Below, in pieces: positions 2,246 through 7,371 of a stretch of 64,000 nt of DNA. The stretch comes from Salipiger mucosus DSM 16094 (GTDB lineage Bacteria > Pseudomonadota > Alphaproteobacteria > Rhodobacterales > Rhodobacteraceae), in NCBI RefSeq assembly GCF_000442255.1, contig NZ_KE557274.1, forward strand, positions 549,311-613,310, given 5' to 3'. Under the pieces are notes generated by a model. That model ran no database searches. It saw only the letters and a list, made by a program, of their open reading frames with translations, and had not been told where the DNA came from. A program made the translations under genes and the position numbers. Position 1 is the stretch's first letter, and each line of letters begins with the position of its first letter.

Positions 2246-2743
2246 CTAGATCGATTTCACGGTTTCAACCGTCTTCGACCATGCCCGCTCTGCATCCGTT
2301 CGGTGGCGCGGACGCGACTTTTCTGTCCGGGCACTGCGTCCGGGCGGCGTGATCTCTTCCGGCTCCGGCGCCGGCAGGAGAAACTGCTTCGGCTTGGCGT
2401 CCTTTTCCGGGGCCGGCTCGGGTTCGGGGTCAGCAGCCTGTTGGGCAGGTGCCTTGATGGGGTTCATCCGACGCGGCGGACGTTTGCGCGGCGCGCTGGG
2501 CGCGTAGGGCTCGACGACGTCATCCGTTTGCCTGTGCCGATCCCAAGTCGATGCGCTAAACTGGTCCGGGTCGAAGGAAAGCGCCTGCGTTTTCTGAGAC
2601 CGTGGCTGGCGCTCCGATCCTTCTGCAGGGGCTTCCGGCCATCGCGCCACGGTCTTGGACCTGGACTGCTGCTTGGCCGGAGCCGGCTTGGGGGCAGTGT
2701 CACGGCCGAGGACGTCGTCGAAAAAGGAAAAGTCTGAGCTCAT
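2246..2743 (-). CDS. Hypothetical proline- and charge-rich protein (165 aa)
   Basis: Unrecognised. The product begins MSSDFSFFDDVLGRD and is then low-complexity: rich in Pro, Ala, Glu, Lys and Arg, with PEPEPAPEKDAKPK in the middle and a basic C-terminus ending TVETVKSI. No signal peptide, membrane segment or enzyme motif is visible. It is probably mostly disordered. It is co-directional with the two replication-region genes upstream (gap of 54 bases), so it may be the last gene of that transcript. It could be a small DNA-binding or partition accessory protein, but nothing in the sequence proves this. The opposite-strand open frame through this region also runs through nrdJ and is a shadow. 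Confidence 0.6.
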   Translation of the reverse strand: MSSDFSFFDDVLGRDTAPKPAPAKQQSRSKTVARWPEAPAEGSERQPRSQKTQALSFDPDQFSASTWDRHRQTDDVVEPYAPSAPRKRPPRRMNPIKAPAQQAADPEPEPAPEKDAKPKQFLLPAPEPEEITPPGRSARTEKSRPRHRTDAERAWSKTVETVKSI

Positions 2744-2797: not shown

Positions 2798-3946
2798 CTA
2801 TCCCCGCACGATCTTCAGCAAGAACAGGTAGTAGTCGAGCGACCAGTCGCGGGGAGGTGTTCTTTCGCCGTGGTGAATGGTTCTGAGCCACCGGTTCCAG
2901 TTGGAGGGATTCAGCCCGTCCACGTCAGCGTGGATGGCACCGAGTTTCTTTGCCCAGCCGGGTCCGATTGAGAGGATCCGGTCCATGCGGTCATTGCGCT
3001 GGGCCGGGCTGATTTCCGGAACGGTTCGTTGCTCCCGGGTGTACCGGTTCATCAGGGCAAGGAACCGGCTTTCCGCGGTCCCCGTGTCGCCGTCCGGTGG
3101 CCCCTGGGTTTCGAGGGATGCGATGAAGTCATCGTTGACCGAGAGGATGTCATCGCTCGAAAGGCCCATGATGACGGCTTCGACGGCAATGAGGCTGCTG
3201 AAGTAGACCGGGCGTTTCGCGTAGCTTTCCTTCAGCCGTGCGATGCGGTCCGACTGTGCCTCGATCTGACTCTGCCGCCGGATACCGGCCGCAACGTCGC
3301 TGCGCATCTTCGGTGTCATCGTGGCGATTTTCGCCGCCCGCTTGCTCCGCATGTACTCGATGCAGGTCGGGAAAGTCTCCAGATCGTCGATTTTCAGGGT
3401 CGCGATGTCCTCGCCGGTGTGGTCGTGCGCGACCATGATTTCGTAGGCGGCCGGATCACACTGCTCGCGCTGGAACCGAATGAGCCCTTCGAAGGCCTGA
3501 TCGCAATGCTCTCCGGTTGCTTCCCGTAGGAAGAACTTGGCCAGCAACACGAACTCGTCGTCCGGGTGCATCTGGAGCCGACGGGCCCAGTCGATCTGGC
3601 GGTGCCATGTGTGCTCCCGGATCGGGGCAACAACCTCGACGCCGAACTCGTCCACGAGCGTACGCACGAGCCGCGGGGCAGGGGACAGAGGATCGGCTGC
3701 CCGCTTCTCGACATACCGGTAGAACTGGATGTCGGGTTTCTCGAGGGCAGCGGCCCGGACGGGATCTTCCGGAGGCCGGCTCAGGACATCGTTGATCCAC
3801 TCCCGGCGGAGAGCGTCTGCCGTGAAACGGGTCTCTTCGACTTCCTTGTCGATGACCTCCAGCAGCGTCGGCTCGACATGCAGCTGGGCGAGGAGGCCTT
3901 TGACGTAGTGCAGGGGTGCGTCGATGTCTTGCTTGGCGTAGGTCAT
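2798..3946 (-). CDS. Unknown protein translationally coupled to the replication initiator (382 aa)
   Basis: Unrecognised. The start is chosen at 3946 because ATG overlaps the TGA of the rep gene as ATGA; the open frame extends further upstream but only inside rep. The product (MTYAKQDIDAPLHYVK...) is soluble and mixed alpha-helical in appearance, with many Arg/Glu/Asp residues, an Arg/Lys-rich central part around RSKRAAKIATMTPKMR, and a C-terminal WNRWLRTIHHGERTPP. No ParA Walker motif, HTH or signal peptide is obvious. Tight coupling to an initiator suggests a role in replication control, copy number or segregation. That is inference from position only. Confidence 0.75.
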   Translation of the reverse strand: MTYAKQDIDAPLHYVKGLLAQLHVEPTLLEVIDKEVEETRFTADALRREWINDVLSRPPEDPVRAAALEKPDIQFYRYVEKRAADPLSPAPRLVRTLVDEFGVEVVAPIREHTWHRQIDWARRLQMHPDDEFVLLAKFFLREATGEHCDQAFEGLIRFQREQCDPAAYEIMVAHDHTGEDIATLKIDDLETFPTCIEYMRSKRAAKIATMTPKMRSDVAAGIRRQSQIEAQSDRIARLKESYAKRPVYFSSLIAVEAVIMGLSSDDILSVNDDFIASLETQGPPDGDTGTAESRFLALMNRYTREQRTVPEISPAQRNDRMDRILSIGPGWAKKLGAIHADVDGLNPSNWNRWLRTIHHGERTPPRDWSLDYYLFLLKIVRG

Positions 3947-4998
3947 TCGTACTCCGCGAGGATGCTGTCGATGACGGAATCGTCGAGCTGTTCCATTTCG
4001 GTTTCCTTCCGCGTGCTGAACTTCAGGCGCAGCCAACGGAGAAAGTTCACACCAGGGTCGGTCACCCGCTGGCCGGCCACTGAGGCCCGCCAGTCGTCCA
4101 GGTAGCGTTCCAGCTCCCCTTCGTCGGTGCCGTTCGAAGACATGATGAAGACGGCTTCCTCGAGGGCTTCGTCGGAAACGGTTAGGTTGAGCGTGTTTTC
4201 CTCGTCGGTCTGGCCGGTCAGCATGTCGACAGTTTTCGGGTCCCGTCCGCGCGGAATGGGATCGTTTCCGGTTGCGACGGCCTCCGACGGCAGCTCGGTG
4301 CGCGGGATCACCGTGAACCGCAGGGTCTCCACCTTGCCACCCTTGCCGCCGCGAATGTAGGACACGTCGATCCCGAAGGGGGCAATCCGGTTCACTTCCT
4401 TGACGGCCTTCTCGATCACGTGGCGTTTCAGGTTGTCGAACCGGCAGTACTGGTCGGTCCCGATCCCGAAGCGGTCGCGGAATTCGTCGACCGGGACGGT
4501 CCAGGTCCGATGGAACCGGTTCTTGAACAGGGTCATGATCTCGTAGAGCTTGGCTCCGTGCGTCGTCTTGAAGTGCGAGAACAGCGACATGTTGATCTTG
4601 CCGTAGATCTGCGGCTCGAAGATGAAACGCATCAGGATGGGATCGAACGCGTACTCCAGCATGCCGTTCGAGGTCCGGGAGACGTCGTAGGACAGGAAAT
4701 GGCAGCTGACGGAATGCTCATCGTCTCCTTCACGGTAATCGATGTCGATCTTGACGCTGCCGAGGTTCTTGAGGGACCGGTGCATCAGCTTGATGCTCGT
4801 GTGGCCAAGATAGTTCAGCAGTTCGGCGACAGGCACGCTCTGGATCCCGGCGTCGGCGGACTCGTTGTAGGACCGGTGAAGAAGGTAAAGGAAGGTCTTC
4901 ATGTCCTGCAGGTCGAGCTGATGCTTCCCACGGGCCATGATGACCTCGTAACTTTTGCAGACCGAGGCCTGCCTGGATATCGCGGTTCGACTGCTCAT
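3943..4998 (-). CDS. Rep_3-family (RepB-type) plasmid replication initiator
   Basis: Initiator that binds iterons and melts the plasmid origin. The product fits the Rep_3 twin winged-helix fold: KSYEVIMARGKHQLDLQDMKTF near the N-terminus, then MSLFSHFKTTHGAKLYEIM and a second domain starting RTWTVPVDEFRDRFGIG and FDNLKRHVIEKAVKEVN, which is typical of this family. Length 351 aa from ATG at 4998. An in-frame GTG at 5043 preceded by AAGGA is an alternative that would add 15 residues. The gene is read away from an AT-richer iteron block at 5057-5176. A perfect 10-bp inverted repeat spans the upstream region and probably serves autoregulation. It is followed without a gap by the coupled unknown gene. 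Confidence 0.9.
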   Translation of the reverse strand: MSSRTAISRQASVCKSYEVIMARGKHQLDLQDMKTFLYLLHRSYNESADAGIQSVPVAELLNYLGHTSIKLMHRSLKNLGSVKIDIDYREGDDEHSVSCHFLSYDVSRTSNGMLEYAFDPILMRFIFEPQIYGKINMSLFSHFKTTHGAKLYEIMTLFKNRFHRTWTVPVDEFRDRFGIGTDQYCRFDNLKRHVIEKAVKEVNRIAPFGIDVSYIRGGKGGKVETLRFTVIPRTELPSEAVATGNDPIPRGRDPKTVDMLTGQTDEENTLNLTVSDEALEEAVFIMSSNGTDEGELERYLDDWRASVAGQRVTDPGVNFLRWLRLKFSTRKETEMEQLDDSVIDSILAEYE

Positions 4999-5049
4999 GG
5001 ATAGGTGAACTTCCCTACGTCTGTTCTGAACTTCACTAGTCACCTATCC
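4999..5049. promoter_or_regulatory. Inverted repeat operator of the rep gene
   Basis: GGATAGGTGA (4999-5008) and TCACCTATCC (5040-5049) are perfect inverted copies 31 bases apart, flanking the rep start region. The interval contains TAGGGAAGTTC on the minus strand, close to the iteron core. In iteron plasmids an inverted partial iteron upstream of rep is the usual site for repression by Rep dimers; here that role is inferred. Confidence 0.6.
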
Positions 5050-5056
5050 TTGTTTC

Positions 5057-5176
5057 CCCTAAAGGACAACAAGAAAATGAAGTGAACTTCATAAGATCTG
5101 TAGGGGAAGAACAGAGATTTTTCGAATGTTGACATAAAATCTTTAGGGAACTTCCATAAAATCCTTAGGGCAAATG
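5057..5176. other. Iteron-type origin of replication
   Basis: Directly upstream of rep there are 22-base repeats with the pattern CATAARATCTKTAGGGRA: copies at 5090-5111, 5133-5154 and 5155-5176, the last two spaced exactly 22 bases. Related inverted cores (CCCCTAAAGG at 5057; AGTGAACTTC at 5081) lie beside them. The block is distinctly AT-richer than its surroundings. This is the expected anatomy of a Rep_3 origin. No clear DnaA box was found by eye. Confidence 0.65.
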
Positions 5177-5247
5177 GGAGTTAACGCCCGAATTGTCCCA
5201 GTCATGGCAATAACTTAACTGACCCCCAGAACCCCCCTGAATATTGA

Positions 5248-5297
5248 ATGCGCGCGCGTGCGCGTGCGCCTGTACGTGCGTGCGCCTACGCGCGCGA
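5248..5297. repeat. Alternating purine-pyrimidine (CG/TG) tract
   Basis: About 50 bases of almost unbroken alternating purine-pyrimidine, starting ATGCGCGCGCGTG and ending TACGCGCGCG with two C-C interruptions. Such sequences are Z-DNA-prone. It sits between the iterons and the palindrome array, in non-coding DNA. Confidence 0.55.
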
Positions 5298-5420
5298 GGC
5301 GTCGGGCTTTCCGCCGACCTTTGACTGTCCCCGAGCCGGATTCCGGGAGACAACCTGGTTACCGTACTTCGCGTGGCCGCGACTTCGTCAGCCAGTTTCC
5401 CGCTCAGCTTTCTGGAATCG

Positions 5421-5979
5421 GATTCCTAACGGCGCGTGACCGCGCTTGTAGGAAATCGGGTACCGTGCCGGGTATCCGGTTCCCTGTTTCGTCGATGGTT
5501 ACCCGGGAAGGAACAGGGAACCTGTGGCACGTGACCGTGCCCGGGAAACCTGCTTCCTCCTGGTCGGTAAGCCGAGTCCTGGCCCTTCTGGTGAGCCAGA
5601 CTCCGAAGATCCCTTCGGAATTCAGATTCCGGATGGCGCGTGACCGCGCCGGATGCACACGAGTCCGACATTCGGAAGACTGATTCCGGAGAGCGCGTGA
5701 GCGCGCCAGGAAGACCGGGGCTCGCCGGTCCTGTCATCCGTTTCCTGTTTTGGACCTGAAGGTCCAGGTCGTGATCCGCTTGCCGAAGAATGTGCAGGGA
5801 GTCGGATTCCCAAGGGCGCGTGACCGAGCCAGACGGATCCGGAAGACCGGTCCTGGATCAGGTTCCGGGTAGGATCGAACGTTTCCCGGATCAAGGACTG
5901 GAACCGATAGGCGCGTGCGCACCCGGGTATCGGGGTGGCAACGACGAGATCAGGGCTCATGCCGGCGCGGTCACGCGCC
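5421..5979. repeat. Array of GGCGCG-TGAC-CGCGCC palindromes beside the origin
   Basis: Six copies of a 16-base dyad with a TGAC spacer: 5431-5446, 5526-5541, 5635-5650, 5692-5707, 5815-5830, and an inverted copy at 5964-5979. Copies one, three, four and five are each preceded by GATTCC exactly four bases upstream. Copy two reads GGCACG-TGAC-CGTGCC, so both arms changed together and the dyad is conserved. Other palindromes are interleaved: GGTTCCCTGTT/AACAGGGAACC (5478-5488, 5512-5522) and TGGACCT/AGGTCCA (5751-5766). No convincing gene overlaps the array. The region 5177-6080 therefore appears to be a structured cis element such as a centromere-like partition site, a primosome or single-strand initiation site, or a protein-binding array. 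Confidence 0.7.
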
Positions 5980-6080
5980 TTGCCAGTCGTGATCACCGAC
6001 CAATGCAAATTGGTTTCCTGGCAGAAGCAAGTTTCCTTCACCGACCGAAGAAACCTGTTCAACGGTGCAGCGCGATCTCT

Positions 6081-6338
6081 CTACGCGTCTGGCAGAGTCG
6101 GAATCCCGGTTTCCCGAGGCGCTGATGCGCCAATGGCCTCCGGTTTGCGGAGCAGAGATGTGGAGATGCGGCGTACAAGCCGCAGGAACGGCCCTGTGTT
6201 GCTTTTCCGACCTTCGATGACCCTGAGGTCCCGAAGGTCTTCCAATGACACTCCACGGACCGTCTCTGGCCGTTCAAGCCTATCCGCGGAATGGACGAAG
6301 ACGAAAGCTCGAAGAGCACTGTCGAACAGGCCTGACAC
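6081..6338 (-). CDS. Possible small hypothetical protein (85 aa)
   Basis: An open frame starting with GTG (MSGLFDSALRAF...) with a plausible amino-acid mix (VSLEDLRDLRVIEGRK). It has no clear ribosome binding site and no recognised motif. It fills part of the otherwise gene-free stretch between rep and the lipoprotein gene. It could equally be non-coding DNA belonging to the repeat region. Confidence 0.25.
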   Translation of the reverse strand: MSGLFDSALRAFVFVHSADRLERPETVRGVSLEDLRDLRVIEGRKSNTGPFLRLVRRISTSLLRKPEAIGASAPRETGIPTLPDA

Positions 6339-6396
6339 GTCGGATTAACCTGGCGGGAATATCGTTCCATCACGATTGCCGACCGGAGATAGACGA

Positions 6397-7371
6397 ATGA
6401 TAAAGTTCGGACGAATGATGACCCGCGTGGCTCTGTTGAGCTTCGTGACGGTCATGACCGGTGCTTGCTGGCCAGGCGGGGACTCCGATCCGGCCGATGA
6501 CATCGAGGCAGAGCTGAGCGAGAAATACCCTGCGGTGTTCAAGGCCGACGCCGTCGGCCCGTTCTTGTCTCAGATCCGGCCGGAGCTGCGCGATCTGCGG
6601 TATGCCGACCGGGAAGAGTATACCTCGGTCGTTCGTGGCATGGCCCAGATCATGCGGCTCAAGCCGCTGACGGTCACCGTCGAGGATATGCGACAAGACC
6701 TTCCCGAAGTCGACATGTACGAAGGTCTTTCCGACCCTTTCTCGAGCGAGTTTCTGTCAAGCTTCTACGAGGTAGAGGCTGAGCGGATCGGCAACGGCGG
6801 AGTTACGTTCGAGAGTATCAAGACGATGGGTGCGGCTCATCAGGAAAACGCCGTGACGAAGTACAGAAATGCGCTGTTGAGGTACCTCGAGGACCTTCGA
6901 GCCAAGCGCGAGACTCTGGTCGAAAAGGACGAACAGCTCGAGGAAGTCTTCGCGTTGATCTCGTTCATCCAGCCGCAGGTCGATCAGGACGATGACACGC
7001 TTCGGATCAACGTTCAGACCCGGAACGGCACGGAACAAGACCTTTCATCCCTCGGGATTACGGTGGCAGCCTGGGAAACGGAGGAGAGGTTCGGAGAACC
7101 CGAGGTGCTCGGGACGAGGATCGTGTCGTTCGACACGCCATTCGCTGCAGGGAATGACAGGTTCCTCGACGTATCGATCAATGCTCCGGGCTACGAGAGT
7201 GGCCCGATCAGTATTACTGCGACACAACTGACGAGCGAAGCGGGACTTTCGTTCGAGCGTTCGGCGATGGAAAAGCCGCTGCGAATTGCCGAGGATATGA
7301 TCAACGACGCAGAGCGGGCCCGCCGGTCAATCCAGAATGATCTGACCAGAGCATTGACCGATTTTCCGTGA
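6397..7371 (+). CDS. Predicted lipoprotein of unknown function (324 aa)
   Basis: Start at 6397 is chosen because GGAG lies eight bases upstream. The N-terminus is a lipoprotein signal: MIKFGRMMTRVALLSF, then VTVMTGAC with the lipobox cysteine around residue 24. The mature part is acidic, with helical segments (YRNALLRYLEDLRAKRETLVEKDEQLEEVF, here abbreviated as residues about 155-185) followed by a beta-rich region (DTLRINVQTRNGTEQD, VLGTRIVSFDTPF). It is predicted to be anchored in the outer or inner membrane facing the periplasm. The family is not recognised. It stands alone, convergent with the minus-strand gene ending at 7375, from which it is separated by only three bases. Confidence 0.75.
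   Translation: MIKFGRMMTRVALLSFVTVMTGACWPGGDSDPADDIEAELSEKYPAVFKADAVGPFLSQIRPELRDLRYADREEYTSVVRGMAQIMRLKPLTVTVEDMRQDLPEVDMYEGLSDPFSSEFLSSFYEVEAERIGNGGVTFESIKTMGAAHQENAVTKYRNALLRYLEDLRAKRETLVEKDEQLEEVFALISFIQPQVDQDDDTLRINVQTRNGTEQDLSSLGITVAAWETEERFGEPEVLGTRIVSFDTPFAAGNDRFLDVSINAPGYESGPISITATQLTSEAGLSFERSAMEKPLRIAEDMINDAERARRSIQNDLTRALTDFP

Follow-up and report, generated by a model that had tools for sequence, protein, structure and literature searches.

An array of short palindromes in the non-coding DNA upstream of a Rep_3-type initiator gene of Salipiger mucosus DSM 16094 is read here as a candidate CcrM-gated, cis-acting control region of the Rep_3 origin of a large secondary replicon, a reading in which our belief and our doubt are about equal. 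As the array is packed with CcrM sites, it probably serves to time the replicon or to control its copy number and is probably not a hidden segregation site. The window, by which we mean the whole stretch of 64,000 nucleotides that was analysed, is found at 549-613 kb of a contig of 702,451 bp (hereafter C2), and its relevant features are the following:

2246-2743, minus strand: third gene, after the partner gene (165 aa, no family match)
2798-3946, minus strand: coupled 382-residue partner protein, conserved alongside Rep
3943-5043, minus strand: Rep_3-type initiator, 366 aa (Rep3_N and Rep3_C)
5005-5170, no strand: iteron-like repeats of the CATAAAATCTTTAGGG type, three copies at 5090, 5133 and 5155
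5248-5297, no strand: mostly alternating purine-pyrimidine tract, predicted to be Z-DNA-prone, between iterons and array
5330-6150, no strand: whole dyad/GANTC array, non-coding, the densest GANTC region of C2
5431-5446, plus strand: dyad 1, with GATTCC at 5421
5526-5541, plus strand: dyad 2, with changes in both arms (GGCACG/CGTGCC) and without a GANTC within 12 bp
5635-5650, plus strand: dyad 3, perfect, with GATTCC at 5625
5692-5707, plus strand: dyad 4, with GATTCC at 5682
5815-5830, plus strand: dyad 5, with GATTCC at 5805
5964-5979, minus strand: dyad 6, perfect and inverted, no GANTC within 12 bp
6118-6131, plus strand: diverged relative of the dyad, a GGCGC-TGAT-GCGCC hairpin preceded by GANTC sites at 6095 and 6101

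The initiator matches the Rep domains WH1 and WH2 (PF01051/PF21205) with E-values of 1.3e-11 and 1.2e-13, over the curated cut-offs, and the end of its gene overlaps the start of the partner gene. Iteron-like direct repeats with spacings of 43 and 22, which are putative Rep sites, adjoin rep, and the tract at 5248-5297 contains a 22-bp alternating run that is the maximum of C2; this predicted Z-DNA-prone element between iterons and array is conserved. The partner protein gave nothing convincing in a Pfam search over seven members (best E 0.078, each hit confined to a single member), no match to PDB sequences (best E 1.2) and nothing better than E 1.9 with Foldseek, and no recognisable ParB or DNA-binding fold was found in it by these profile, PDB and Foldseek comparisons. 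Its predicted structure, modelled from five sequences, is all-helical and of modest quality (pLDDT 71, pTM 0.51).

On sequence comparison, Rep and its coupled partner define a rare family of large replicons, with seven members in 72,556 plasmid records, since tblastn searches (E 1e-30) with queries from four members returned the same six to seven records. The members, of 316 kb to 1.32 Mb, come from Salipiger CCB-MM3, two Bosea, two Acetobacter, Methylorubrum AM1 and Rhizobium leguminosarum, and share full-length Rep homology and a coupled partner gene downstream; Thalassospira, two further Acetobacter and Methylobacterium hispanicum were added from genome contigs (four relatives among 82 pattern matches). 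Partner proteins aligned from seven replicons are 15-40% identical to that of the window. Among 394 genomes of Rhodobacteraceae, the partner was found in its own genome only, and a Rep of at least 50% identity occurs, among 20 genomes of the genus, in that genome and one other (G163). With a cut-off of E 1e-20, a class-wide search by Rep profile gave matches in 9 of 385 genomes, and the matches beyond the own genome look like more distant Rep_3 proteins; the corresponding partner profile matched none of the 385, a result that is uninformative as the search had no positive control. Viral contigs yielded six distant partial relatives of Rep and nothing closer.

The six copies of GGCGCG-TGAC-CGCGCC that drew attention to this locus are all present with at most two mismatches, four of them preceded by GATTCC at a distance of four bases and one, at 5964, inverted as had been described. 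Allowing three mismatches, there are nine dyad matches in the window where 4.4 are expected, six of them within 550 bp, and the composite of GATTCC, four bases and dyad (pattern GATTCCNNNNRGCGCGTGASCG) occurs four times, each time free of mismatches although up to three were permitted, against 0.67 expected. The original prediction took the double arm change of the copy at 5526 as a sign of selection on the dyad; the change is genuine, but covariation within the window is weak, because this single event stands against three other copies in which an arm change is left uncompensated (of 36 arm cells, 33 are paired). Short perfect hairpins with arms of at least five bases number 20 in 5300-6380, compared with 7.7 in shuffles.

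Both exact copies of the dyad in the 5.69-Mb genome, and two of its three one-mismatch copies, lie within the array, where the motif is concentrated; the total at up to three mismatches is close to background (427/419 with the array counted in, versus 405/400 for the reversed pattern). A search for GATTCC-N4-dyad arrays in 20 genomes of the genus, own included, uncovered no further one. With up to two mismatches the composite motif is present in 16 of these 20 genomes, own included, and its matches outside the own contig are isolated single sites, one of them exact (in G162). Exact dyads were also met in 55 stretches of viral contigs, which were set aside as background because each had a single match and no array.

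GATTCC contains GANTC, the methylation site of CcrM, a point that the first inspection had overlooked. With 12 GANTC in about 800 bp, compared with 9 in the next interval of C2 and a mean of 1.24, the array ranks first on the contig for GANTC whether intervals of 400, 800 or 1800 bp are compared, and so does the corresponding spacer on the complete CCB-MM3 plasmid at all three sizes. GANTC is also the most enriched of the 16 palindromes of the form XYNY'X' at both places (9.6-fold in the array and 7.6-fold in the CCB-MM3 spacer, the runners-up reaching 3.65-fold and 2.5-fold), and its densities of 14.6 per kb (array of the window) and 8.8 per kb (array of CCB-MM3) compare with 1.83 and 1.29 per kb in non-ORF DNA elsewhere on C2 and on the CCB-MM3 plasmid, respectively. 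For the array proper, the count was reached in 5 of 1000 dinucleotide shuffles; for the broad spacer 5044-6387, which takes in A+T-richer iteron DNA, it is unexceptional (107 of 1000). The over-representation of GANTC looked for in a CcrM-controlled origin is found at the replication module. A second GANTC-rich interval of C2, at 651 kb, appears by eye to be coding DNA directly preceding a tRNA-Pro gene, and patterns resembling CtrA sites (TTAA-N7-TTAA) or DnaA boxes were not found near the array.

The closest relative is plasmid unnamed1 of CCB-MM3, which resembles C2 in its Rep (50%), its partner (40%), its neighbouring genes and its Z-prone tract, and which carries a dyad/GANTC array at the matching spacer. 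It differs in that its dyads are of the GGCGC..GCGCC and CGGCC..GGCCG types and its array is longer, with units of about 157/314 bp; the dyad of the window is absent from it except for a single three-mismatch match. In this plasmid GGANTC stands about 9 bp before the GGCGC..GCGCC hairpins and about 7 bp after the CGGCC..GGCCG hairpins. The longest alternating run of this 316-kb plasmid measures 21 bp and is also situated between iterons and array, in the tract at L127 7735-7791. In Bosea ANAM02, CATCGG(9)CCGATG dyads are followed by GANTC two bases further on, and the array of Bosea RAC05 resembles it, both being downstream of the third gene; the rep-upstream spacer of ANAM02 taken alone is weak (138 of 1000 shuffles reach its count). 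R. leguminosarum has dyads of the form ATTCGG-AATC-CCGAAT with GANTC at their centre and up to 15 GANTC per 500 bp, and the 617-bp spacer of Thalassospira holds nine. The rep-upstream spacers of four Acetobacter relatives and of M. extorquens AM1 contain no GANTC, and the three in M. hispanicum are at chance level; for M. hispanicum, as for A. pomorum and A. malorum, the spacer ends were set roughly. A GANTC cluster was thus counted in 6 of 12 replicons, that of the window included.

In four of these six replicons (all but those of R. leguminosarum and Thalassospira), 20 of 26 repeated dyads have a GANTC within 12 bp (4 of 6 in the window, 9 of 12 in CCB-MM3, 4 of 4 and 3 of 4 in Bosea) versus 7.4 under the null, a number reached in 0 of 5000 draws; the dyad patterns were chosen after inspection of the sequences, and dyads that share a locus do not count as independent. 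The pairing in the window taken alone, where two dyads have no GANTC nearby, gives p 0.07. A less strict test, covering nine regions, came out only mildly positive in total (p 0.022 and 0.0095), with no excess in R. leguminosarum. Among the repeat units of CCB-MM3 and Bosea the central base of GANTC varies, yet the site is kept.

GANTC is also enriched at Rep_3 origins more widely. Upstream of 40 other Rep_3 genes of the family (41 loci requested, 40 matched, 28 and 12 from two Rep searches; the second Rep of the own genome is included), 222 GANTC correspond to 6.3 per kb versus 0.91 in the rest of the loci, a mostly coding control; this enrichment is 6.9-fold, the next palindrome reaching 2.3-fold. 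Base-composition shuffles of these upstream stretches gave a mean of 131 and a maximum of 165, so that part of the contrast with the rest of the loci reflects depletion elsewhere. In a wider set of 58 Rep_3 loci, which includes distant classmates, the copy of the CCB-MM3 genome (L059) and a few loci twice, GANTC averages 6.1 upstream of the gene, 1.2 inside it and 1.6 downstream. The RepA spacers of C2 and CCB-MM3 have five each. We also observed, at a Rep_3 origin in another genome (G340, L140 860-1350), many TGTGCCA-type repeats interleaved with GANTC. The enrichment of GANTC at Rep_3 origins is the most testable of our results.

We propose that the unit of these arrays would be a replicon-specific dyad with a neighbouring GANTC, the dyad being a predicted binding site for Rep or, more likely, for the coupled partner. 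In Caulobacter and Agrobacterium, CcrM methylates only late in the cell cycle, and the GANTC sites of the array are expected to be methylated with the same timing. Passage of a replication fork would then leave the whole cluster hemimethylated until CcrM acts, dyad occupancy or GcrA binding would depend on whether an origin has just been replicated or is fully methylated, and this difference could limit or time initiation. The dyad-binding protein, the methylation of GANTC at this locus and the gating of initiation by methylation are inferred. Tentatively, and leaning towards doubt, we would go further and regard replicon-specific dyads with CcrM sites as an undescribed class of methylation-gated timer, in which the array is read by the partner of a Rep_3 family confined to large alphaproteobacterial replicons, while CcrM marking would be general to Rep_3 plasmids.

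Arrays beside iterons are typical of incompatibility or handcuffing regions, and the dyads might simply titrate or pair Rep or the partner, with GANTC present only because it lies inside a GGANTCC operator and with no role for methylation. Palindromic GGANTCC is indeed over-represented (4 in the array of the window versus 0.50 in shuffles, and 9 versus 0.98 in CCB-MM3), but GANTC is enriched despite varying flanks in R. leguminosarum, Bosea and other inspected Rep_3 loci, and we consider this explanation unlikely.

The setting of the array on C2 bears on whether it could be a partition site. ARAGORN, run over the 700 kb of C2, reported three genes, a tRNA-Pro being the one clear case among them, for which reason the contig looks extrachromosomal; its ends showed no overlap at six lengths tried. 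C2 carries in addition a RepA (RPA) module at 257258-258364, near the GC-skew minimum at 261 kb, and CCB-MM3 one at NZ_CP014597.1:266805-267854, with its minimum at 268 kb, so that on both replicons the minimum is near the RepA module and not near the Rep described here, a point against the CcrM-gated reading. The stretches sampled from Bosea gave no clear skew placement. CCB-MM3 252-303 kb matches C2 196-264 kb and 509-561 kb with order kept, the intervening 245 kb of C2 having no such ordered match and other matches being scattered. Judged from this layout, the element probably has two replicators, of which the Rep_3 module of the window is the second. No repABC set was found at the origin, the locus consisting of Rep_3 and partner and the other module of C2 being RPA/RepA.

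The original prediction had noted that no parAB genes were nearby and had proposed the array as the cis site of an unrecognised partition or replication-control system. The window has no ParA or ParB_N match, but the contig does have a ParA (237 residues, at 227.5 kb, with an adjacent 241-residue ORF), and CCB-MM3 has an AAA ATPase (ParA) and annotated ParB genes at 261-264 kb, near RepA. The replication-control half of the proposal fits the array in the CCB-MM3 spacer and the conservation of the partner with Rep; its partition half is weakened by these ParA and ParB genes, since a RepA module and ParA elsewhere on both replicons make a hidden partition system unnecessary. Nothing came to light that would connect the array with the degenerate recombinase, which the prediction had named as a candidate. 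A centromere whose dyads are bound by the partner or by another centromere-binding protein would account for replicon-specific dyads clustered beside an origin, and would agree with the lack of a ParB_N (PF02195) match on C2 and on six of seven complete relatives, a soft absence because the profile also missed the annotated ParB of CCB-MM3. Against it, ParA-type matches occur on all seven relatives (six over the cut-off) and on C2, with an adjoining small or ParB-annotated gene at each of five places looked at; neither a ParB nor a DNA-binding fold is recognisable in the partner; no dyad with up to two mismatches is present at the ParA locus of C2; and the only AAA_31 match of C2 lies 327 kb from the array and not beside the putative cis sites. 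We regard this explanation as quite unlikely. In Bosea, ParA and a small ORF are within a few kb of ScpB, and in ANAM02 also of ScpA (NZ_AP022849.1 391971-396646; NZ_CP016463.1 205209-209929), at a distance from rep of some 310-357 kb, the replicons being circles of about 700 kb.

A methylation-sensitive promoter, by which GcrA and CcrM would control rep or the divergent gene at 6376-7371 while the dyads serve as ordinary operators or attenuators, would be in line with the GANTC peak at 200-500 bp upstream of Rep_3 matches and with the promotion of repC expression by GcrA reported for Agrobacterium in the accessible text of PMC11514494. An array of 0.8-1.7 kb far exceeds the needs of a promoter, however, and the repeated dyads of Bosea lie downstream of the third gene, which leaves this explanation improbable. 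A structured non-coding RNA or RNA array is very improbable, for despite the hairpin excess, a fold z of -3 to -4 in some windows of 160 nt and a more stable minus strand over 1.7 kb of CCB-MM3 (-751 versus -669 kcal/mol for the plus strand), the two strands of the window fold about equally, most sliding windows are unremarkable at both loci, and the hairpins of the array loci differ among themselves in type and orientation.

For the preferred reading of a CcrM-gated control region, the host has CcrM-type sequences (N6_N4_Mtase and RAMA), the gene being split into two reading pieces in the assembly. This ccrM-type gene (L261 700-1815) comes after an rnhB-like frame, and its two-piece reading is either a sequencing error or real. 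CCB-MM3 has a gene for an MT-A70 family methyltransferase, which might modify the array, some 1.7 kb downstream of its rep and partner genes (L127 11901-12440). GANTC methylation has been reported, in the portions available, in Paracoccus (PMC3925955) and Sulfitobacter (PMC9025767). In the literature searched, "CcrM" and "iteron" appeared together in three papers (one review, one paper on Vibrio and one on a phage), and "GANTC" and "iteron", among the matches listed, only in that same review. If the reading is right, CcrM marking extends to iteron (Rep_3) origins and the array offers a compact, mutable test piece. A 2026 survey (PMC13342612), in the part available, holds that further timers coordinating secondary replicons with the chromosome, beyond Vibrio crtS and Agrobacterium methylation, are still to be found.

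Rep_3 plasmids of the Rhodobacterales type, from the same family and genus, share the initiator family and the upstream GANTC enrichment, but their Rep is only about 20-31% identical, the partner occurs in 0 of 393 other genomes of the family, and a comparable dyad array was not noticed in the few loci inspected. The origin of Vibrio chromosome 2 follows a once-per-cycle logic. That origin, with RctB and Dam-methylated GATC, is similar in having adenine-methylated, initiator-controlled repeats, as far as the available text of PMC2865523 goes; here, methylase, motif and initiator are different, and GANTC stands beside the dyad and outside the iterons. The origin ori2 of Agrobacterium Ch2 is likewise that of a low-copy secondary alphaproteobacterial replicon with CcrM sites at its replication module, and GANTC-rich repABC loci, effects of CcrM on ori2 and effects of methylation on its replication are described in the accessible parts of PMC11514494 and PMC6090056. 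The present locus differs from it in having a Rep_3 iteron-type initiator in place of repABC and GANTC paired with repeated dyads in arrays of 0.8-1.7 kb, and the CcrM-gated array is, on our best reading, a new variant of the control known from repABC replicons.
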